A stretch of DNA of 28,942 nucleotides from a virus, in IMG/VR virus record IMGVR_UViG_3300034375_001012, positions 1-28,942 of that record. One strand, 5' to 3'. Shown piece by piece: positions 5,338 to 26,069 of this stretch (the first letter of the stretch is position 1; every line of letters starts with the position of its first letter). Position numbers and translations under genes: made by a program. The notes under the pieces were generated by a model that searched no databases, was not told the origin of the DNA, and was given only the letters and a program-made list of their open reading frames with translations.

Positions 5338-6021
5338 ATGGGATATATTGGAAATTTCCCAACTGCCTTACCTTTAAGTTCAAATGATTTAAATGATGGA
5401 ATAGTCACTACTTCAAAATTAGCTAACGATTCAGTTAATGCTTCTAAATTAGATGAAACAGATAATTATGCCTTTACTGGTACTGTGAGTGGTGCAGGTG
5501 CTTGGAATTTAATTTCTACTAATGAAATAACTACTGCAGTTAATACAGTAGAGTGGACTGGTCTTGATGATACCTACAAAGTATATGTTGCTGTTATAAA
5601 TAATATGCAATTAACTGGTGACGGTGGTATAGGATTTAGAATTGGTGATAGTGGAGGGTATAAAACTTCTAATTATAGATATACAGGTTTTGAATCTGTT
5701 GCTAATACAACTGCTATTAATGGTGTTGGTAATACTAGTTCTAATAGAATTTCTTTATCTGGCTCACATTATAATTTTGGTGGTGATACTTTTGAAAGTG
5801 CCAACCTAACAATTTGGTTTTATAATTTAAGAGGAACATCTGGACATAAACATTTCTTAGCACATACTTCATTTGTAGAAGCAGGAAATTATCACGCACA
5901 AAGTCTTTATAGTGGAAGATTATATGAAACCACTGCTATGGATAGAATACAATTTGGAAATATTGGTGGTGGTCAAAATATGGATACAGGAACATTTAGT
6001 TTATATGGAGTATCACAATGA
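5338..6021 (+). CDS. Tail fibre protein
   Basis: A 227-aa fibre-like protein. The N-terminus (MGYIGNFPTALPLSSNDLND) followed by GIVTTSKLANDSVNASKL is the repetitive trunk linker common in marine phage fibres, in which SKL units precede a receptor-facing head. At residues 43-53 the motif DNYAFTGTVSG recurs in the protein at 7618-8136. The rest is a Gly/Asn/Thr-rich beta domain, presumably the tip. The stop overlaps the start of a small chaperone-like gene (ATGA), the usual fibre/chaperone pairing. Receptor binding is inferred. Confidence 0.7.
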   Translation: MGYIGNFPTALPLSSNDLNDGIVTTSKLANDSVNASKLDETDNYAFTGTVSGAGAWNLISTNEITTAVNTVEWTGLDDTYKVYVAVINNMQLTGDGGIGFRIGDSGGYKTSNYRYTGFESVANTTAINGVGNTSSNRISLSGSHYNFGGDTFESANLTIWFYNLRGTSGHKHFLAHTSFVEAGNYHAQSLYSGRLYETTAMDRIQFGNIGGGQNMDTGTFSLYGVSQ

Positions 6022-6305
6022 AAAAATATAGTAATGGTATATTGGTTGATATGACTGCTGAAGAAATAAATCAATGTAATATTGATATTGCAGAAGCACA
6101 AGCAAACGCATTTCCAAATGCTCTTAAATTTTTAAGAGTTAAAAGAAATGCTCTCTTATCACAAACAGATTACTTAGCATTATCTGACCAAACAATGAGT
6201 GCAGAGATGACTACTTATAGACAAGCATTAAGAGATATTACTAACGGATTAACTACAGTCGCAGATGTTGAAGCAGTGGTATTCCCAGAAAGACCAGAGG
6301 CATAA
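6018..6305 (+). CDS. Tail assembly chaperone-like protein (Phage_tail_APC type)
   Basis: A 95-aa protein whose C-terminal 55 residues carry the pattern KRNALLSQTDYLALSD, then YRQALRDITNGL, then VVFPERP. This matches the phage tail assembly chaperone family (R..LL..TDW..L.D ... W..YRQALRDI ... WP..P). It overlaps the fibre gene upstream by 4 bases. In related phages such proteins accompany fibre genes and help fold or attach the fibre. A second, diverged copy lies at 8142-8552. The first 40 residues are not recognised. Confidence 0.7.
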   Translation: MKKYSNGILVDMTAEEINQCNIDIAEAQANAFPNALKFLRVKRNALLSQTDYLALSDQTMSAEMTTYRQALRDITNGLTTVADVEAVVFPERPEA

Positions 6306-7617: not shown

Positions 7618-8136
7618 ATGGCGCTAATTAAAATAAAATCTGAATCTATGAATTTAGCTGATGACTATGCCTTTACAGGTACAGTGACAGGTGCAGGTGG
7701 GGGTAAGGTTTTACAAGTACAATCAGCAAATTATACTTCTGTTTATGGTACTGCTAGCACTGGTTATGGTATTGTTATTACTGTTGTCATTTCACCTACT
7801 GCAAATACAAGTAAATTTTATATCGTACATAATAACGGAGCAAATAGTGGTACTAATTCCACAAACTTTGGTCATTCAACTATTGTAAGAGAAGTTAGTG
7901 GTGGAGGAACAACAAATCTAGGTGGTGGTCATGGCTCATCTTTTACTATTAATAAAGATGCTACTGGAGGTGAGAGTTCTGTATCAACAATATTAGATTC
8001 ACCAAACACAGTTTCACAATTAATTTATACTGTTCAAGTAAAATCAGATAACGCAGGAAGAACATATTATTACAATGGTATTTCAAGCGGACAAGCAGGA
8101 CAGGCGTGTTTAACAGTAATGGAAATAGCAGGTTAA
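7618..8136 (+). CDS. Fibre-like structural protein (partial paralogue of the 5338-6021 fibre)
   Basis: A 172-aa beta-rich protein. Residues about 15-27 (DDYAFTGTVTGAG) repeat the motif of the fibre at 5338-6021 (DNYAFTGTVSGAG), but the SKL linker trunk before it is missing. It then reads GKVLQVQSANYTSVYGTAST and further Gly/Ser/Thr-rich beta sequence. It starts one base after the stop of the frameshifted gene and uses an AAGGAGG ribosome site inside that gene's 3' end. Probably an additional fibre tip or virion decoration protein that arose from a duplicated module. Function inferred. Confidence 0.6.
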   Translation: MALIKIKSESMNLADDYAFTGTVTGAGGGKVLQVQSANYTSVYGTASTGYGIVITVVISPTANTSKFYIVHNNGANSGTNSTNFGHSTIVREVSGGGTTNLGGGHGSSFTINKDATGGESSVSTILDSPNTVSQLIYTVQVKSDNAGRTYYYNGISSGQAGQACLTVMEIAG

Positions 8137-8141
8137 AAACA

Positions 8142-8552
8142 ATGATAGACATAGCAAAAATAATAGAATCACTTAATAAAAAGAATGGAAATAATTATGA
8201 ATTTGTAGTCAAAGGAAATCCAACAACTGAGGAAGAATATAATAATAATGTTGATTTTGTATCTAGTATTGACATTAATGGTTTTGCTATTTTTTCTGAT
8301 ACTAAATTTTATACATGGTCACAAATACAAACAGAATTACCTTTAGTAGAATTTAATAATGCTATGGAAGAACTTAGAACTAAAAGAAACGCATTATTAG
8401 AAGAAACTGATTACATAGTCATCAAAGCAAAAGAAACAGGTGCAACAATCCCAACTGCTTGGAAAACATATAGACAGGCATTAAGAGATATAACCAATGG
8501 ACTGACTACTGTTGAAGAAGTAGAAGCAGTCATATTCCCAGAGAAGCCCTAA
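8142..8552 (+). CDS. Tail assembly chaperone-like protein, second copy
   Basis: I take the ATG at 8142 (MIDIAKIIESLNKKNGNNYE), not an upstream alternative start, because the upstream part overlaps the previous gene; the product is 136 aa. The C-terminus (KRNALLEETDYIVIKAKETG, then YRQALRDITNGLTTVEEVEA, then VIFPEKP) closely matches the protein at 6018-6305. The N-terminal 75 residues differ and resemble a sensor-like segment of fibre chaperones (DINGFAIFSDTKFYTWSQIQ). Together with the gene before it, it forms a second fibre/chaperone pair. It ends with a TAATG overlap into a membrane protein gene. Confidence 0.7.
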   Translation: MIDIAKIIESLNKKNGNNYEFVVKGNPTTEEEYNNNVDFVSSIDINGFAIFSDTKFYTWSQIQTELPLVEFNNAMEELRTKRNALLEETDYIVIKAKETGATIPTAWKTYRQALRDITNGLTTVEEVEAVIFPEKP

Positions 8553-11957: not shown

Positions 11958-11975
11958 TTATTTATAATTTAGCTA

Positions 11976-12005
11976 TTGACGAATTATAAAAAAATGTGGT
12001 ACAAC
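11976..12005 (+). promoter_or_regulatory. Putative sigma70-type promoter of the 12-kb gene block
   Basis: TTGACG (11976-11981) and TACAAC (12000-12005) are separated by 18 bases, in a very AT-rich stretch. The expected start point is near 12012, just before the shared 23-base leader. The same geometry recurs at 23072-23100. The -35 box is good, the -10 box moderate. Confidence 0.5.
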
Positions 12006-12017
12006 TATCACAATGAA

Positions 12018-12040
12018 AAATACAGGAGAAACTAAAATGA
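12018..12040 (+). repeat. Shared 5' leader element, copy 1
   Basis: A 23-base sequence containing ACAGGAGAAACTAAAATG is repeated exactly at 23115-23137. It holds a Shine-Dalgarno (AGGAG) and the ATG (12037) that I take as the true start of the following gene. An upstream in-frame ATG at 12013 would add eight residues including NTGETK; a similar short extension (also with NTGETK) exists at the second copy. The repeat looks like a transplanted expression module. Confidence 0.75.
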
Positions 12041-12741
12041 TTAATTATTTTTTCAGAGATGGTGAAAAAGTTGAATACAAAGTATTTGACGATAACGGAA
12101 AATTAGTAGCTAACAGATATTGCGGTAAGTGCGGCGGTACAGGTTTAACACCTTACTACTGGGTACAGGGTGGTACTTGTTTCAAATGTGATGGAACAAA
12201 AATTGATCCTACTCCTAGAAGGGTATTTACAAAAGAGGAGTTAGATAGATTAAATAAAAATGCAGAGATAAGACTAGAAAAGAGAATGGCAAAAATTAAA
12301 GTAGAAAATAATCTAGTTATTTCTGGAATTGAATTTGGTCATTATTGGAAAAGTTTTAATGAAAGAGTAGAATTTAAATCATGGAGAGAAATTAAAAAAT
12401 CTAAATATTTAGCCTGCATCAAAACAGGTTTTAGCTTAGAAATTTTAGAGTCAAAGACAAAAGATTTCTGGGTTAAAGTAAAATCTGACTTTGTTGAATT
12501 AGGTAAATATGTCAAAGAACTAACTTTAGTTTTTAAACATGGTTTTGAAACTCAATATGGTTATTCAGAAATTTTTAAATTTATTGATGACCAAAGTAAT
12601 CAATATGTTTGGTTTACTTCTTCTTATCCTAAGTTAGAAAAAGGCAAAACTTATAATGCTAAATTTATTGTAAAAGATAATCAAGAGTCTGAAGAATATG
12701 GCAAACAGAATATGATTAAAAATTTTAAGGAGGTAAAATAA
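12037..12741 (+). CDS. Zinc-ribbon-containing hypothetical protein
   Basis: A 234-aa protein started at the ATG at 12037, eight bases after AGGAG. Residues about 28-55 hold CGKCGGTG and CFKCDGT, a four-cysteine DnaJ-type zinc-binding site. The rest is an unrecognised domain rich in aromatic and charged residues (HYWKSFNERVEFKSWREIKK), ending in a beta-like region (NQYVWFTSSYPKLEKGKTYN). Such proteins are common in marine phages, with unknown function; nucleic acid or protein binding is possible. Its last codons contain the ribosome site of the next gene (AAGGAGGTAAAATAA). Confidence 0.65.
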   Translation: MINYFFRDGEKVEYKVFDDNGKLVANRYCGKCGGTGLTPYYWVQGGTCFKCDGTKIDPTPRRVFTKEELDRLNKNAEIRLEKRMAKIKVENNLVISGIEFGHYWKSFNERVEFKSWREIKKSKYLACIKTGFSLEILESKTKDFWVKVKSDFVELGKYVKELTLVFKHGFETQYGYSEIFKFIDDQSNQYVWFTSSYPKLEKGKTYNAKFIVKDNQESEEYGKQNMIKNFKEVK

Positions 12742-12828
12742 ATGATACACGATCTAATCACAGTGCTAGTTCACTTAGGAACATTTGCTTTCATACTTTA
12801 TTTCATTAAGGAGATATTCAATGACTAA
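12742..12828 (+). CDS. 28-aa membrane micropeptide
   Basis: A strong ribosome site (AAGGAGGT, 12727-12734) precedes the ATG at 12742 at a good distance. The 28-aa product (MIHDLITVLVHLGTFAFILY plus FIKEIFND) is one hydrophobic helix with a charged end. Its end overlaps the next gene, whose ribosome site (AAGGAG) lies inside it. Small single-pass peptides like this are easily missed. Function unknown, perhaps a membrane modulator of the host. Confidence 0.5.
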   Translation: MIHDLITVLVHLGTFAFILYFIKEIFND

Positions 12829-13006
12829 ATTAACTGCTCAAGAAGAAAAAGAATTTAATGAGTTTGTTGAAAGAATGACAGAAGAATTTGGTAGCACAGG
12901 TGCATCTTGGAGATACGGAACAAAAATAGGCAAAGGTGGACTTAGTGGTGAGAAAAGAACTAAAGGAAAATATTTTCATACATTGAAAAATGGGAGTGTA
13001 AAATAA
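12821..13006 (+). CDS. Hypothetical protein, 61 aa
   Basis: The ATG at 12821 follows AAGGAGATATTCA, so it is preferred to an upstream start inside the micropeptide gene. The protein starts with an acidic helix (MTKLTAQEEKEFNEFVERMT) and ends basic and glycine-rich (KGGLSGEKRTKGKYFHTLKN). No family is recognised. It overlaps the next gene by one base (TAATG). Confidence 0.55.
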   Translation: MTKLTAQEEKEFNEFVERMTEEFGSTGASWRYGTKIGKGGLSGEKRTKGKYFHTLKNGSVK

Positions 13007-13509: not shown

Positions 13510-14259
13510 ATGGAAAAGAAAATATTTAGTACAACTCAATACGATAACTTTACTTTCTTTGAAGGTAATAGATCAGTAGATCAAAACAGGATCAAACAAT
13601 TAATGGAAAGTATTAAGATTAATGGTTTGATTAATCCGCTAGTGGTATCTCAGAACTTGGAGATTATTGATGGTCAGCATAGATACGCTGCATTAAAAAT
13701 CTTACAGATGCCTATTGACTATCATATTCACAATGTGGATAGAGGTCAGCTAATCTCATTAGTAAGAGATATCAATTCAGTTCAAAAGAATTGGACTAAC
13801 TATGATATTGCTAATGCCTATGCCGTACATTCACCTAATAAGATCCATTACAAAAGATATTTGGATTTAGTTGATCTAGGTATTAATCACTCAGCAGCTT
13901 TAGAAGCCTGTGGTTATTTATCTGTAGGTGATAATGAAAAAGGCTATAGCAAATTCTACAAGAACTTTAAGAATGGCAATCTGGAGATTACCGAACAGGT
14001 ATTCAACAATGTTAAAGGGTTTGTAGCAACTTTAGTTCAATCACCTTTTGAGAAGAAGATTTGGAATAAGGCACACTTCATTAGAGCGTTATTACATCTT
14101 CATAAGTTATATAAGTTAGACATTAAGAAGTTCTTTAGAGCCTACGAGAATAATCCTTATAAGTGGAAAAAAGCATCTACTTATGATGATCATAAAACTT
14201 CTATGGTTAAACTTTATAACTTTAATAATCAAAGACCAATTAAGGTCTTGTTTGAATAG
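13510..14259 (+). CDS. ParB-like nuclease-domain protein
   Basis: A 249-aa protein with an N-terminal ParB/Srx-like domain (residues about 10-80): DQNRIKQLMESIKINGLINP, LVVSQNLEIIDGQHRYAALK. GQHR corresponds to the GHHR-type CTP-binding box. The C-terminal two thirds are helical and basic and not recognised, so it is not a full ParB with centromere-binding domain. Possible roles are DNA binding or nuclease activity, or gene regulation. AGGAGGAACTTTT precedes the ATG. A second, unrelated ParB-like protein is at 18238-18696. Confidence 0.75.
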   Translation: MEKKIFSTTQYDNFTFFEGNRSVDQNRIKQLMESIKINGLINPLVVSQNLEIIDGQHRYAALKILQMPIDYHIHNVDRGQLISLVRDINSVQKNWTNYDIANAYAVHSPNKIHYKRYLDLVDLGINHSAALEACGYLSVGDNEKGYSKFYKNFKNGNLEITEQVFNNVKGFVATLVQSPFEKKIWNKAHFIRALLHLHKLYKLDIKKFFRAYENNPYKWKKASTYDDHKTSMVKLYNFNNQRPIKVLFE

Positions 14260-14806: not shown

Positions 14807-15247
14807 ATGGAAATAAGAACGGAAAAGCTGCTATCCGCACTTGAAGCAGCAAAGAGAGAGTTTAAGCCATTACAGAAAAACGGCAAAAACAATTTCTTTA
14901 AAACTCAAAACGGAGTGCATGAATACAGTACCTTAGTAGATATCAAAAATGCTACAGATGAAGCATTAAATAAACATGATCTATCATTGTACTACACAAT
15001 CACTTTTGAAAATGATCTTCAATTCCTGACTACTAACTTAGTACACACAGGATCAGGTCAGTTCATAACTTCAAGATCAGTCTTAGGTAATCTATCAAAC
15101 AATCCGCAACAAATTGGATCAGCGATTACTTATTACCGCAGATATCACATTCAGGCTATGTTAAATCTGGAAGCTGATTTTGATGATGATGGAAATAAAG
15201 CATCAACCCCAAAGCCTAACAATACACCAATTAAAGGAGGTCTATAA
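14807..15247 (+). CDS. erf: Erf-type single-strand annealing protein
   Basis: A 146-aa recombinase resembling the ERF superfamily: front LLSALEAAKREFKPLQKNGK, middle EYSTLVDIKNATDEALNKHD, and the key segment NNPQQIGSAITYYRRYHIQA followed by ML.LEADFDDDGN. The GSAITY.RRY box is the family hallmark. It anneals complementary single strands in phage recombination, likely with the nuclease at 16086-16859 and the SSB-like protein that overlaps its end. Length is shorter than P22 Erf (about 200 aa), as in many Erf cores. It opens the replication module. Confidence 0.88.
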   Translation: MEIRTEKLLSALEAAKREFKPLQKNGKNNFFKTQNGVHEYSTLVDIKNATDEALNKHDLSLYYTITFENDLQFLTTNLVHTGSGQFITSRSVLGNLSNNPQQIGSAITYYRRYHIQAMLNLEADFDDDGNKASTPKPNNTPIKGGL

Positions 15248-18058: not shown

Positions 18059-18238
18059 ATGAGTAAATCAGATATGCAAAAACCACAGAATTACATCATT
18101 ATAGATAATGAAGATGGCACATATTCCGCTTATGTGAATTATGGTGTATTTGAAAGCAAAGAAGATGCAGAAATAAGTTTACAATATGTTATGGATCTTA
18201 TGGGATATAAATTACAACCCCAAGTGACTTATCACTGA
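18059..18238 (+). CDS. Hypothetical protein, 59 aa
   Basis: The ATG at 18059 gives a 59-aa protein (MSKSDMQKPQNYIIIDNEDG, then TYSAYVNYGVFESKEDAEIS, then LQYVMDLMG) ending in an ATGA overlap with the ParB-like gene. The sequence reads as a beta-hairpin plus helix (the DGTYSAYVNYGVFESKEDA part is like that of small SPOR-like or phage modulators). No ribosome site is clear. Function unknown. Confidence 0.55.
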   Translation: MSKSDMQKPQNYIIIDNEDGTYSAYVNYGVFESKEDAEISLQYVMDLMGYKLQPQVTYH

Positions 18239-18696
18239 TGAATGTTCAATTAAAAGCAATTACGGATATAAAACCTTACGCTAGAAATCCTAGAAAAAAG
18301 AAAAATTTAAATAAAGTTGTAGAAAGCATTAAACAGTTTGGATGGCAGCAACCTATCGTAGTAGATAGAGCAGGAGTGATTGTTGCAGGTCATTCCAGAT
18401 ATGAAGCAGCTAAGATATTAGAATGTAAAGAGATACCAGTGCTGATTGCTGATCTATCCCCTGAAAAAGCAAAAGCCTATAGAATAGCAGATAACAAAAC
18501 AAATGAGTATAGTGAATGGGATTTTTCCTTATTAAACAAAGAATTTACGGACTTGCTAGATATCAATATGGATTTAGAGATCACAGGGTTTGATACTAAA
18601 GAACTTGAAGATTTCTTTACATTTGATAAAGAGGATGATGTAGCCAAGATTAAGACAGAGAAATCCTGCCCAAATTGCGGTACAAAATTAAAATAG
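18238..18696 (+). CDS. ParB-like protein next to terminase, with C-terminal zinc ribbon
   Basis: A 152-aa protein with a ParB/Srx domain: DIKPYARNPRKKKNLNKVVE, QQPIVVDRAGVIVAGHSRYE, AAKILECKEIPVLI, then ADNKTNEYSEWD. The GHSR box corresponds to ParB motif GHHR. In phages this domain is often fused to a DNA methyltransferase. Here the methylase is absent and the protein ends in a CPNC zinc knuckle (one CxxC pair, so perhaps dimeric). It lies just upstream of TerS/TerL, where such proteins are thought to act in packaging. That role is inferred. Confidence 0.78.
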   Translation: MNVQLKAITDIKPYARNPRKKKNLNKVVESIKQFGWQQPIVVDRAGVIVAGHSRYEAAKILECKEIPVLIADLSPEKAKAYRIADNKTNEYSEWDFSLLNKEFTDLLDINMDLEITGFDTKELEDFFTFDKEDDVAKIKTEKSCPNCGTKLK

Positions 18697-22385: not shown

Positions 22386-22617
22386 AGGCAAAACAGTATC
22401 TACTACTGAGTTCTACAACTGGTCACATCAGCAGCATAATTTAAAAAGATGTTTTTGCGGCGAATTTGCAAGTATCGGTTTTAATTACAAATTTGGTATG
22501 TTAGAACTATTATGTTTTAAACATTACAAAGAGAGGATAGGAAAATGCCATACGGAAAAGGAACATACGGCTCAAAAGTCGGCAGACCACCAAAGAAATC
22601 AGTTAAACCTTCTATGA
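22366..22617 (+). CDS. Small cysteine-containing head-region protein
   Basis: An 83-aa frame starting inside the end of the structural protein gene. The front (MSPIPPKGKTVSTTEFYNWS) and a Cys/His pattern (CFCGEFA ... LLCFKHYKERI) suggest a small zinc site. Its last 24 codons overlap the next small gene in another frame; the real product probably still uses this stop. No clear ribosome site before the ATG, so coupling to the gene upstream is likely. Function unknown. Confidence 0.5.
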   Translation: MSPIPPKGKTVSTTEFYNWSHQQHNLKRCFCGEFASIGFNYKFGMLELLCFKHYKERIGKCHTEKEHTAQKSADHQRNQLNLL

Positions 22618-22640
22618 AAAAGAAGAAAAAGAAGAAGTAA
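22545..22640 (+). CDS. Small lysine-rich protein, 31 aa (MPYGKGTYG type)
   Basis: The ATG at 22545 follows AGAGGATAGGAAA and gives 31 aa: MPYGKGTYGSKVGRPPKKSV and a C-terminal lysine run. This short protein type is frequent in phage head clusters and probably binds DNA or packs in the capsid. It overlaps the previous gene by 73 bases out of frame. It directly couples to the next lysine-rich protein (TAATG). Confidence 0.65.
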   Translation: MPYGKGTYGSKVGRPPKKSVKPSMKKKKKKK

Positions 22641-22783
22641 TGCCACTAATTAAGGGTTATTCAGCTAAATCTATCAGTAAGAACATCAGGACTGAATTAA
22701 AAGCAGGGAAACCTAGAAAACAGGCTATAGCAATAGCTTTATCTACTGCTAGAAAAGCTAAAAAGAAAAAGAAAAAGAAATAA
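22640..22783 (+). CDS. DUF6496-like small basic protein, 47 aa
   Basis: An ATG at 22640 gives 47 aa: MPLIKGYSAKSISKNIRTEL, then KAGKPRKQAIAIALSTARKA and a lysine run. The core (MP.IKG.S...I..NI..E..AGKP.KQA.AIAL..AR) matches DUF6496-type phage proteins. Such proteins sit in the head module of many phages, perhaps as DNA-condensing virion components. Both ends overlap the neighbours by one base. Confidence 0.8.
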   Translation: MPLIKGYSAKSISKNIRTELKAGKPRKQAIAIALSTARKAKKKKKKK

Positions 22784-23061
22784 TGGCTAATTATAAAGGT
22801 CGTCAGGTCAAACTCAATAAACCATTCCGAACACCCAATAAAAGCAAGAAATTTGGTGTTTATGTGAAGGATAAATCCAGTGGGAATGTGAAAGTAGTGA
22901 GATTTGGCGATCCTAAAATGAAGATAAAAAAGAATATCCCTGCCAGACAAAGGTCATTTTTGGCTAGAATGGGGGGTGTTTTAAAGCAAGTCAGAGGTCA
23001 AAAGACCTTATCCCCTGCCTATTGGTCAATTAGGGCATGGAAAAAAAACTTTCCTTTATAA
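22783..23061 (+). CDS. DUF5872-like head-region protein
   Basis: A 92-aa basic protein: KKFGVYVKDKSSGNVKVVRF, then GDPKMKIKKNIPARQRSFLA, then SPAYWSIRAWKKNF. The VYVK, VVRFGDP.M.IKK and PARQRSFLAR phrases are those of a conserved phage head-cluster protein. Common members have a cysteine pair (around ARHNC and YWSC); here both positions lack cysteine (RMGGV, YWSI). It may be a protein of the head cluster with unknown function. Confidence 0.75.
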   Translation: MANYKGRQVKLNKPFRTPNKSKKFGVYVKDKSSGNVKVVRFGDPKMKIKKNIPARQRSFLARMGGVLKQVRGQKTLSPAYWSIRAWKKNFPL

Positions 23062-23071
23062 AAATAAATAG

Positions 23072-23106
23072 TTGTAATTTAGTTATAAATTGGTTATAAA
23101 ATAACC
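23072..23106 (+). promoter_or_regulatory. Promoter with overlapping dyad operator for the 23-kb cassette
   Basis: TTGTAA (23072-23077) and TATAAA (23095-23100) are spaced 17 bases, a good sigma70-type match. A direct repeat GTTATAAA (23082-23089, 23093-23100) spans the -10 region one turn apart, and the dyad GGTTAT-AAA-ATAACC (23092-23106) covers the -10 and start point, so a repressor site is likely. The expected start is at about 23107. Confidence 0.6.
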
Positions 23107-23114
23107 ATGAACAC

Positions 23115-23137
23115 AAATACAGGAGAAACTAAAATGA
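23115..23137 (+). repeat. Shared 5' leader element, copy 2
   Basis: Identical 23 bases to 12018-12040, including the AGGAG and ATG (23134). It begins about 8 bases downstream of the expected transcription start. At both sites an in-frame ATG upstream (23107 here) could add a peptide with NTGETKM, but the internal ATG has the better ribosome site. Confidence 0.75.
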
Positions 23138-23409
23138 CTAAAGTAAGCAAAGAGTGGATTGCACACTGTGAAAAAATGCAAAAATTATATAACGATAGTA
23201 TTTCTAATGTTGCTTTAAATGAAGCAAATCAAGAAATTAAAAGCGGTGATGTAATCACTGGTTGGGGTGGCGGAGAATTTATTTTCTGTTTCATCTACAA
23301 AACTGGCGACTTGCTAGTATGTGAGAAAGATCAGGATTGGAAAAATATCCAAAATCGTTTCTTAACTAAAGCAAATTTCTTTAATTTAAAATGTAAGGAG
23401 TGGGCATAA
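23134..23409 (+). CDS. Hypothetical protein, 91 aa (cassette gene 1)
   Basis: Started at the ATG at 23134 of the shared leader. The 91-aa product (MTKVSKEWIAHCEKMQKLYN, then EIKSGDVITGWGGGEFIFCF) has a helical front, a beta-like GWGGGEFIF segment, and three or four scattered cysteines. No family is recognised. First gene of an accessory cassette in the head operon, under its own promoter. Confidence 0.55.
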   Translation: MTKVSKEWIAHCEKMQKLYNDSISNVALNEANQEIKSGDVITGWGGGEFIFCFIYKTGDLLVCEKDQDWKNIQNRFLTKANFFNLKCKEWA

Positions 23410-23416
23410 GCCCACT
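23399..23416 (+). promoter_or_regulatory. Hairpin spanning the stop codon of cassette gene 1
   Basis: AGTGGGC (23399-23405) and GCCCACT (23410-23416) make a perfect 7-bp stem with an ATAA loop that contains part of the stop codon. The next ribosome site (AGGAGG, 23421) is five bases after. There is no T run, so it may stabilise the mRNA or modulate read-through rather than terminate. Confidence 0.5.
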
Positions 23417-23431
23417 TCTCAGGAGGTAAAT

Positions 23432-23722
23432 ATGAATCTTACAGACTTAGAAAAATTATTAGTAAAACATCTTTTTAACTGTAATGGTTATGAAGAAGCT
23501 AAATGTTTTAGATTTGATTGTGAAATCTATCCAACAGAGGGTAGATATTCAGCAGCTAATGTAGAAGGTGCTGATTTAATGGTAGGTCAGTGGAAGGGTG
23601 TTTTTGGATCATTAGAGAAAAAAGGTGTTATTCAACTTTGTGAATACCTTAATGATAATCGTAGAATGCCTATATATATGTTTACTTATGAAGCAGAGAA
23701 AAAATTAAAGGAGGTAAAATAA
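23432..23722 (+). CDS. Hypothetical protein, 96 aa (cassette gene 2)
   Basis: A 96-aa protein preceded by AGGAGGTAAAT. The sequence (MNLTDLEKLLVKHLFNCNGY ... WKGVFGSLEKKGVIQLCEYL) looks like a small winged-helix fold: helix, then a helix ending in LEKKGVI and beta wing to MFTYEAE. This would suggest a DNA-binding regulator, but is inference. Its last codons hold the next gene's ribosome site (AAGGAGGTAAAATAA). Confidence 0.5.
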   Translation: MNLTDLEKLLVKHLFNCNGYEEAKCFRFDCEIYPTEGRYSAANVEGADLMVGQWKGVFGSLEKKGVIQLCEYLNDNRRMPIYMFTYEAEKKLKEVK

Positions 23723-23907
23723 TGACTGACACAAAATGGATTATTGAAAAAGATCACATTTCAAAAGGTAGAAAAAAAACCTTTAATGGATGGATTGCAA
23801 CTTTAGTTGGTAAGAATGATGAGAGATTAGACATCATCAGATCATGGACTAAGAAATCATTAATTGAAGAAATAAACTTTAGATACCCATATCAGGAGGT
23901 AAAATAA
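23722..23907 (+). CDS. Hypothetical protein, 61 aa (cassette gene 3)
   Basis: A 61-aa soluble protein (MTDTKWIIEKDHISKGRKKT, then FNGWIATLVGKNDERLDIIR) with a basic patch and no cysteine. Both ends carry the TAATG seam with the ribosome site inside the previous gene's 3' end. Function unknown. Confidence 0.5.
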   Translation: MTDTKWIIEKDHISKGRKKTFNGWIATLVGKNDERLDIIRSWTKKSLIEEINFRYPYQEVK

Positions 23908-24188
23908 TGAGCAAATATAAATTACCATTCGGTCAGAAACTTATCCAAGAAGTGGGTAATTTTCTATTCATTCAACAAAACCATTTCTATGAGCATAGCG
24001 GCGTAGTCACTGATCAGGTATGGTTTAAGTATTATATCCATAAAGATGCTCTTAATAAAAAAGGGAATTATGGTGTTGTTAGTATCAGAGATGACAAGAC
24101 ATATTCAGTCTTTGATAAGCAGTTTAATATATCTATCTACAAGAACTTAGAGGATGCCTTTAAGTATGTAGAGGAGATGTGGAGTTAA
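23907..24188 (+). CDS. Hypothetical protein, 93 aa (cassette gene 4)
   Basis: A 93-aa protein, last of the cassette, with a beta-like middle (DQVWFKYYIHKDALNKKGNY, then GVVSIRDDKTYSVF) and an aromatic helix at the end (LEDAFKYVEEMWS). A GGAGGTAAAATAATG seam precedes it. No family is recognised. It ends at the first base of the 24188-24209 hairpin. Confidence 0.5.
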   Translation: MSKYKLPFGQKLIQEVGNFLFIQQNHFYEHSGVVTDQVWFKYYIHKDALNKKGNYGVVSIRDDKTYSVFDKQFNISIYKNLEDAFKYVEEMWS

Positions 24189-24209
24189 GTAAATAATCCT
24201 GTATTTACT
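24188..24209 (+). terminator. Inverted repeat closing the 23-kb cassette
   Basis: AGTAAATA (24188-24195) and TATTTACT (24202-24209) form a perfect 8-bp stem with a 6-base loop directly at the cassette's last stop codon. The stem is AT-rich and has no long T tail, so termination strength is uncertain. It marks the cassette boundary. Confidence 0.4.
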
Positions 24210-24213
24210 AATT

Positions 24214-24245
24214 AGCCATCCTGTTATATACAAAATGGGATGGCT
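24214..24245 (+). promoter_or_regulatory. Extended -10 promoter and start-codon hairpin before the MuF gene
   Basis: TGTTATATA (24222-24230) matches an extended -10 (TGn followed by TATATA). The ATG of the next gene lies nine bases downstream, and no Shine-Dalgarno exists, so a leaderless message is possible. The same stretch is flanked by a perfect inverted repeat AGCCATCC (24214-24221) / GGATGGCT (24238-24245) whose 3' arm covers the ATG (24240). It could hide the start codon in read-through transcripts, or act as an operator. Confidence 0.45.
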
Positions 24246-26069
24246 ACAAAGCAAGAGATATTATCAAAACTAGCTGCTTCTCACGAACAAAGAATTTCCA
24301 AAGTTCTTTTTGATCTTGAAGAAGATATTATTGCTCAATTACAAAGAGCCACAGACGGAGTTCCCCTTACTACTGATTTAGCTATTCAGCTAAGACCAAA
24401 TCTTAAAAGACTAATAGAGCAGAACTATCTTAAAGAAGGCTCTAAGATTATTTCAGAATATGATGAAGTTGTTAAAGGATATATGGACTATATCCGCACT
24501 ACTCCAGTTTCCGCTAAATTTAAAACGCTTACCAAACCTGATCTAGTCTTAATCAATCAATTAAAACAATTATCCTTTAGTGGATTTGAAGATGTAGCCA
24601 ATAGATTTCTTGATACGATTGCTACAGAGATATATTCATCCGCCGTCACTGGTAAACCATTTCCTCAGGTGGTAGAAAACATCAGAGCATCTATTAATGG
24701 TGTCTATAGACGAAGTAATGAGGAAGCAGTCAATAGATTAGTTAGGATTGTAGAGGAGAATAGATATTCAGATGATCCTTTAGCTAAAAAGAAATACTTA
24801 GATGCCAGAAAGATCCTGCATAGCAAATACGCATCCGATATTAGAGGTGAGAATATGCGCAAGTACGCTAATCAGATTGCTCACGATAGTATCATGCAGT
24901 TTGACGGACAATTCACTAAGTACAAAGGTCAAGAAGCAGGAATAGACACATACAAATATACTGGCACAAATATTACGACTACTAGACAATTCTGTAGAGC
25001 CTATCTTAATGAAATAAAAACAGAGGAAGAATGGAGAGAAGTATTTACTGGCAACTGGAGAGGTAAATCAGGATCAGATCCTTTTGTGAATAGAGGTGGT
25101 TATAGATGCCGCCATAGTTTAATCCCTTATGATCCTGCATGGGATGCAGATGAAGAAGTAAAACAAAAAGTAGATGATATAAAACCAAAAACTAAACCAG
25201 TTGGAAACATTCCTCAAAAAAATATTTATTCCCCATTCCCAAATACAAATGGTAATTCAGTTAATAAAATATTAAATGATTTAGATGGTAATGAAGAATC
25301 TACTATAAGAATAAATAATTTTATTAATGCTAGAAATATTGGACTTAATTTCTTACCTAGAGCAACAAGAAATATAAACAATAGAAGGAAAGAATTACCA
25401 AAAGTACAAGAATGGTATAGTGGATATATTAAAGAAAACAAAGATACATTTAAATATGGAAACCAAAATTATCCAATACAATCAGTAGAGTTAGGAAGTT
25501 TAAAAGGAAGAAAAACTTATAATGGATGGGCTACTCCATTGAATAATATGCCAATAGCTTTAGTAGATGAAGCAACAGATTTATCAAAAATAGATATAAA
25601 AAAATTACAAGATTCAATAGCTTTTACATTAGATAGAACAAGCAAAAATCAAGGTAAGTATGTTTCAAAATTAAATATTGTAGGGAAAAGAGAAATCAAA
25701 AATGCAGATTTTTCTTTTTCAGCTAATTTAAATGCACTAAAACTAGATAACGAACAGAAATTTACAACTATGATGCACGAGATTGGGCATCAAGTTCATT
25801 ATTACGCAATTAAAAATGTAGGTACATCAGATAGAGTGACAACAAATTCAGTTGCAGATGCAATAAATTTTATAAGAAACAAATATCCAAATAGCAATAA
25901 TTTTATATTAACAAAATATGGATCATCAAATGCACATGAATTTCATGCAGAATTATTTGCTGCGTATGCAACTAACAGAAAAGCATTAGAAAAATTTAAC
26001 AAAGGATTAGTAGAATATATGGATGACTTAATTGAAAAAGCTACACAAAGTAAGGTGAAAGGACACTAA
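24240..26069 (+). CDS. MuF-like minor head protein fused to a zincin-like metalloprotease domain
   Basis: A 609-aa fusion. Residues 1 to about 305 look like a Mu F / SPP1 gp7-type head morphogenesis protein (GENMRKYANQIAHDSIMQFD, then TRQFCRAYLNE, then the family's NRGGYRCRHSLIP). After a Lys/Pro linker (about 310-325) comes an unrelated, Asn/Lys-rich region. It holds HEIGH (H513, E514, H517), preceded by TTMM, and then NAHEFHAELFAAY (E567 or E571), the layout of a gluzincin-type zinc protease with a Glu third ligand. In other phages, MuF proteins carry C-terminal toxin domains and are injected with DNA. The front and back halves visibly differ in base composition. Expected to enter the host with the genome or act in head maturation. 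Confidence 0.8.
   Translation: MATKQEILSKLAASHEQRISKVLFDLEEDIIAQLQRATDGVPLTTDLAIQLRPNLKRLIEQNYLKEGSKIISEYDEVVKGYMDYIRTTPVSAKFKTLTKPDLVLINQLKQLSFSGFEDVANRFLDTIATEIYSSAVTGKPFPQVVENIRASINGVYRRSNEEAVNRLVRIVEENRYSDDPLAKKKYLDARKILHSKYASDIRGENMRKYANQIAHDSIMQFDGQFTKYKGQEAGIDTYKYTGTNITTTRQFCRAYLNEIKTEEEWREVFTGNWRGKSGSDPFVNRGGYRCRHSLIPYDPAWDADEEVKQKVDDIKPKTKPVGNIPQKNIYSPFPNTNGNSVNKILNDLDGNEESTIRINNFINARNIGLNFLPRATRNINNRRKELPKVQEWYSGYIKENKDTFKYGNQNYPIQSVELGSLKGRKTYNGWATPLNNMPIALVDEATDLSKIDIKKLQDSIAFTLDRTSKNQGKYVSKLNIVGKREIKNADFSFSANLNALKLDNEQKFTTMMHEIGHQVHYYAIKNVGTSDRVTTNSVADAINFIRNKYPNSNNFILTKYGSSNAHEFHAELFAAYATNRKALEKFNKGLVEYMDDLIEKATQSKVKGH

Follow-up and report, generated by a model that had tools for sequence, protein, structure and literature searches.

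The window analyzed here, a virus record of 28,942 bases, derives from an HTVC111P-type pelagiphage. Judged by portal protein, its closest phages are Pelagibacter HTVC202P, HTVC111P, HTVC026P, and HTVC112P (57–60% identity), whose genomes span 31.6–32.5 kb, and the record is therefore probably short by about 3 kb. The local gene order reads terminase, portal, a 241 aa gene, an 83 aa gene, small basic genes, p92, four small genes (c1–c4), MuF, scaffold, and capsid. The four-gene unit (23072–24239) is bounded on its left by p92 (22783..23061; 92 aa), which in relatives adjoins either inserted genes or MuF directly, and on its right by the MuF-type head gene (24240..26069), conserved over the N-terminal ~300 aa and variable in its C-terminal part. 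The unit, its elements, and both flanking genes all lie on the plus strand. The left neighbor, taken for a DUF5872-like gene in an earlier, sequence-only reading of this DNA, is phrog_7595 (PHROG, 1.4e-15) and has no DUF5872 match in Pfam. Elsewhere, the window carries two consecutive small basic genes (22545–22783; 31 and 47 aa), each with a seven-lysine terminal run; tail-assembly-chaperone-like paralogues (6018–6305 and 8106–8552) with a common 77-nt stretch, 82% identical; two ParB-N-domain-like proteins (13510–14259 and 18238–18696); and, in the Pfam scan of its proteins, a GmrSD_N match whose gene was not pinpointed.

The unit opens with a promoter-like element (23072..23106) made of TTGTAA (23072–23077), a 17-nt spacer, and TATAAA (23095–23100), the latter 6 nt before the first ATG of a leader (23107..23133). 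This leader is likely a 5′ untranslated region and contains a Shine–Dalgarno (SD) sequence, AGGAG (23121–23125). Its 21-nt core, AATACAGGAGAAACTAAAATG, occurs exactly twice in the window, at 23116 and at 12019 (to 12039), the start of the early operon, and never in shuffles; it is also found at many filled sites. The ATG at 23107, 6 nt past the −10 hexamer, probably marks the start of transcription; because transcription should begin there, it is unlikely to be the start of c1, for which the ATG at 23134, behind AGGAG, is the most likely candidate. A conserved N-terminal peptide beginning at the in-frame upstream ATG was considered and rejected, as this ATG is missing or out of frame in some leaders (L264, L065, and L182). 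A dyad, GGTTAT-AAA-ATAACC (23092–23106), overlaps the promoter as the sequence-only reading had described, but it is confined to the window's own subgroup and was rejected as a conserved operator.

Four open reading frames follow: c1 (23134..23409; 91 aa), c2 (23432..23722; 96 aa), c3 (23722..23907; 61 aa), and c4 (23907..24188; 93 aa). Across homologous pairs, dN/dS ranges from 0.04 to 0.43 (0.07–0.21 for c1, 0.04 for c3, and 0.09–0.19 for c4 against the window copy), and c1–c4 are therefore real genes. Pfam and PHROGs gave nothing usable for any of them, and no homologue of c2 or c4 was found among 50,697 phage records. The search of homology and structure that had been proposed for the four proteins was informative only for c2, whose family resembles MarR/PadR winged-helix proteins with weak fold matches (best E about 0.04); c1, c3, and c4 had no match, with no relative of c1 beyond the window's subgroup, and the structure model of c4 was too poor to use (pLDDT 51).

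The genes are joined by seams of two kinds. SD-in-gene TAATG seams, seen directly in the sequence, lie at 23722 and 23907. At the end of c1, a stop-codon hairpin, AGGAGTGGGC-ATAA-GCCCACTTCT (23396..23419; fold −17.4 kcal/mol), precedes the SD of c2, and the first gene of other cassettes often ends in the same way, the next gene's SD coming after the hairpin. Because the hairpin covers the stop codon, unrelated proteins end in -EWA. The paired positions covary: four of ten pairs are altered on both sides, 99% of cells are paired, and none of 500 shuffles reached the observed covariation. CAGGAGG or CTTG follows the hairpin, without a U tract. An Rfam search returned no family.

The closing element is more elaborate. 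An inverted repeat, GTAAATA-ATCCTG-TATTTAC (24189..24208), is near-identical in the window's clade and is not a repeat in L291-type elements. Next to it lie a second promoter-like site (24204..24239), TTTACT-17-TATACA, whose second hexamer is 7 nt upstream of the MuF ATG, and a 13-bp hairpin (24213..24246; loop 24226–24233) whose 3′ arm contains the MuF start codon. The −10-like TATACA overlaps the loop of this hairpin at a fixed distance, and among closing elements the −10 ends 6–9 nt before the MuF ATG. In 18 distinct closing elements, the promoter score is 8.06 of 12 versus 6.25 in shuffles (0/300), while empty sites score 6.32 versus 5.92 in their shuffles. The hairpin has a folding energy of −18.3 kcal/mol (z about −4.7), whereas the median over the 42 gene starts of the window is −3.9; the MuF start is among their two most structured. 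The mean probability that the AUG is paired is 0.82 at filled and 0.38 at empty sites.

Of 31 distinct start regions at filled sites, 14 clearly show this start-codon hairpin, hereafter the gate; a TTGCAC class (9/31), usually with a stop-codon hairpin just upstream, and a reverse-strand class are without it. For gates of the window type, all seven distinct sequences have a helix that is 100% paired, and its compensatory changes track MuF codons 2–3, so the start codon is sequestered in a conserved helix. In a second gate class (L182, L065, L173, and L227), this layout recurs with arms of unrelated sequence, and L227 has a further matched change, GACAT/ATGTC. A search with a 30-nt closing pattern matched 23 viral stretches, and the matches that were checked sit beside p92 or at a MuF start. 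The closing motif was also considered as a general late promoter and rejected, as the window has no second copy. We found no intrinsic terminator on the plus strand at the end of the unit, and the closing hairpins have no U tract. The four reading frames, opening promoter, dyad, leader, SD-in-gene seams, and closing repeat of the sequence-only reading are all in place, but the closing element looks like a promoter combined with a start-hiding hairpin, and the 13-bp gate matters more than the plain repeat just upstream.

To compare relatives at this exact site, loci were collected with portal, MuF, p92, c2, c4, and the leader as queries, and identical copies were dropped. The seam is empty in 75 distinct related loci, with p92 and MuF 0–3 nt apart, and filled in 46 distinct loci with 188–1178 nt of differing genes from about 22 families. 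Most filled sites have the promoter and leader at the opening and a closing element running into the MuF start codon, with one to four genes in between. A quick maximum-likelihood tree built from the N-terminal domain of MuF at 109 loci requires at least 16 changes of occupancy, and well-supported branches force 10 of these. All 12 loci of the window's own clade are filled, with differing contents, and the window's four-gene set is restricted to near-identical contigs. The four genes are not universal in relatives, in keeping with the moron-like added unit first proposed: it is self-contained, sits where many relatives have contiguous genes, and varies in presence and content. It is, nonetheless, one filling of a slot rather than a fixed moron.

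Other arrangements occur near this seam. In cultured HTVC112P and HTVC026P, MuF directly follows the portal gene, and in HTVC202P and HTVC111P a minus-strand gene unrelated to the cassettes occupies the portal–MuF seam; these genes (L293, 7488–7700, and L294, 7461–7919, respectively) lie beside a strong hairpin after the portal gene. Reverse-strand fillings are found at the p92–MuF seam itself in L020, L080, L169, L176, L202, and L172, with common ends (TATGGTTGGTTTGTTTAG... and ...TTGACACGATTTTTGG), and L172 is the sole locus that combines one reverse and one forward cassette. Homology between the minus-strand genes of HTVC111P/HTVC202P and the reverse-strand cassettes was rejected, as no match was found. 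Most loci are metagenome contigs in which the leader repeat could produce chimeras. The suspect case is L167 (3943–5906), where the early-operon left flank, a cassette, and MuF are adjacent and the replication-to-portal region is absent between them, representing either a true rearrangement via common seams or an assembly chimera.

The second copy of the leader (12013–12039) leads to a second slot, which stands first in the early operon (11960..13005, plus strand) and is recognized by its leader and gene families. The MuF site has 22 families and the early site 26; five, including that of c2, are common to both. Copies of these five families are 31–96% identical between slots, and therefore assembly error does not explain the sharing; furthermore, site-specific flanks are present on both sides in L129, L135, L124, and L126 at the early site and in L151, L031, L040, and L048 at the MuF site. 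In geometry, the opening promoter of the window agrees with the promoters that relatives have at the early operon (TTGACA-17-TATAAA, 6 nt, ATGAAC). Given the early-operon leader, the common gene families, and this promoter geometry, the cassette is best read, from sequence, as an early-type unit placed within the late head operon.

Two other accounts of expression have to be weighed at this point. In one, c1–c4 would be small genes transcribed late as part of the head operon, perhaps encoding accessory virion or assembly factors, and the promoter-like sites would be noise of A+T-rich DNA. The genes do lie within the head operon in the same direction, and the opening promoter alone is not significant in such A+T-rich DNA. 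However, its score at the fixed position in 15 distinct opening modules was reached in none of 300 joint shuffles, so that by sequence the unit has a promoter of its own, and both promoter-like sites are conserved in position. The early leader and early-operon families, together with the absence of the cassette from most relatives, also speak against late genes, and we consider this account unlikely. In the other, a classical moron would be expressed from a prophage and benefit or protect the lysogen while late genes are silent. An added unit with its own promoter, patchy presence, and small genes without assigned function suits such a moron, as does the occurrence of reverse-strand variants at the same seam. 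Against it, no integrase or repressor family was detected in the Pfam scan of 42 window proteins (from a record that may lack about 3 kb), a provirus search of 84,980 cellular genomes gave no relative of the portal gene, and the leader and gene families match an early lytic operon. Early lytic expression therefore fits better than the lysogenic expression raised in the sequence-only reading, for which we found no support, and a prophage moron appears quite unlikely. We conclude that the region is probably one filling of an accessory-gene slot, an apparent early-type unit that separates p92 from MuF within the late head operon.

How the slot is refilled can be read from gene ends. In the window, L287, L289, and L291, c4 closes the cassette; in L090 and L219 it comes first and there gains the -EWA hairpin. 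Similarly, c3 is internal in the window and L090 and, as the last gene in L137, is without its -EVK end, and family F19 opens the cassette in L198 and takes second place in L048 and L303. Gene ends are thus a property of the slot and not of the gene. L289 is the product expected from joining the c1/c2 and c3/c4 SD seams. In L303, p92 and MuF are 74% and 64% identical to those of the window, respectively, whereas its F19 gene is 96% identical to F19 of the window's clade. From the slot-bound ends, the L289 joint, and the F19 gene of L303, it follows that single genes move between lineages. The comparison shows genes swapped one by one at common seams, namely the leader, the stop-codon hairpin with its SD, and the closing element. 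A candidate driver of exchange is an ERF-family recombinase (14807..15247, plus strand); the Pfam ERF match (1.9e-20 among window proteins) was assigned to this reading frame by homology context and recognizable ERF sequence. Rad52-like phage recombinases, Erf included, efficiently recombine diverged sequences (PMC3945230), and the short seams would fit exchange via such an enzyme.

The cargo offers some guidance to function. At the MuF site, confident hits are limited to anti-restriction and methyltransferase genes: the L101 filling encodes an ArdC N-terminal domain (Pfam above cut-off; PHROG anti-restriction), and the L182 and L065 fillings encode a phage DNA methyltransferase (phrog_757, 8e-65). 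These fillings make counter-defence or host takeover the likeliest general role of the slot, one that c1–c4 may share. A regulatory cassette, in which c2-like winged-helix proteins would act on phage or host promoters with the other genes as passengers, would agree with the MarR/PadR resemblance of the c2 family, with its recurrence in both slots, and with the promoter dyads of the window's subgroup. The fold matches are weak, however, many fillings have no member of the c2 family, and neither kind of confident hit at the site is a regulator, which leaves this alternative doubtful.

MuF itself varies beside the cassette. Among relatives, its C-terminal part (residues about 330–609) is of three types or absent, and it contains an HExxH metallopeptidase-like motif, with metallopeptidase-type Pfam matches below cut-off. 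The adjacency of the cassette to a head gene with so variable an end could suggest that c1–c4 are an immunity or accessory set for the metallopeptidase-like part. Yet one C-terminal type occurs with many different cassettes, cassette family F3 is found beside two of the types as well as beside MuF proteins that have none, and this part is missing from MuF at many filled sites. On these mismatches, the immunity set was rejected as extremely improbable.

For the early-type unit, a working sequence of events can be proposed in four steps, with both promoters taken as consensus matches. (i) Early expression: the host sigma-70 polymerase would use the opening promoter early in infection, so that c1–c4 would be made early despite their position among late genes. 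(ii) Gating: in early transcripts that read through the unit, the hairpin would take up the MuF start codon, and MuF would stay untranslated. (iii) Release: later transcripts would begin inside the hairpin and, being leaderless and without the 5′ arm, would be translated. (iv) Exchange: genes would be replaced by annealing at short common seams, probably with the phage ERF recombinase, and the cargo would serve counter-defence or host takeover. In its fullest form, this proposal describes a two-slot plug-and-play system: small early genes drawn from one pool (anti-restriction, methyltransferase, regulators, and others) would be swapped singly between the head of the early operon and the late head operon at standard seams, with a covarying exit gate that silences the next head gene until late transcription. 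We hold the odds on this complete system to be even.

Several known systems have similar parts. Like the morons of lambdoid and other phages, the unit brings extra genes with their own promoter to a seam contiguous in relatives, with patchy presence; unlike them, it has no terminator that we could find, an early-operon leader instead of a prophage-type promoter, singly exchanged genes, and an exit gate. The promoter-early/stem-loop (PeSL) units of T4-like phages (Arbiol 2010; Comeau 2014, cited in PMC4503421) are, in that citing account, common intergenic units of early promoter and stem-loop that shuffle small ORFs. The leader and the covarying stop-codon hairpin on unrelated genes correspond to this layout as summarized there; differently from it, the present hairpin lies over stop codons and is without a U tract, the phage is an unrelated small SAR11 phage with Pelagibacter HTVC phages as its closest relatives, and one marked slot lies in the head operon and one at the early operon. 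The gate has its counterpart in T4 genes e, soc, 49, and I-TevI, where a late promoter is embedded in a hairpin that hides the start codon; for gene e, the start region is concealed in the long early transcripts, and the late transcript, which is translated, arises from promoters on the 5′ side (PMC3014915). MuF likewise has its start codon in the 3′ arm, and its promoter-like site in the 5′-side region would restrict concealment to long transcripts. The MuF gate differs in standing at a head gene beside an inserted cassette, in being absent at empty sites, and in a sigma-70-like −10 with a short mRNA that would be leaderless. Overall, the unit works like a moron and, so far as PMC4503421 describes them, a PeSL shuffling unit, with a gate of the T4 gene e type; strict membership of the first two fails because no terminator was found and the phage is not T4-like.

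Other resemblances are looser. The SAS/ESAS of cluster K mycobacteriophages (PMC3203893) are also short standard sequences at small-gene starts with inverted repeats, but they are genome-wide instead of marking one slot, differ in sequence, and have no promoter or gate described. Here, a genome-wide start-associated repeat of the GGGATAGGAGCCC type was not found; the leader repeat, AATACAGGAGAAACTAAAATG, has two copies only. Integron cassettes are likewise exchangeable single-gene units behind one promoter with a gene-end hairpin, whereas homologous seams suffice here, and no tyrosine recombinase family was found by Pfam among the 42 proteins of a window that may lack about 3 kb. The hypervariable regions of HTVC010P-type phages (PMC10504331) are similarly variable in SAR11 phages and linked to an arms race, although they lie in tail and virion genes of another phage type, with no modular seams reported. 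A literature search, not exhaustive, found no published description of the p92–MuF site.

SAR11 is among the most abundant groups of marine bacteria, and little is known of how its phages gain and control accessory genes. The arrangement suggests how a phage may keep an early gene amid a late operon without upsetting virion assembly. For uncultured phages, it also provides a rule: genes between the leader and a MuF gate are likely early host-interaction genes.
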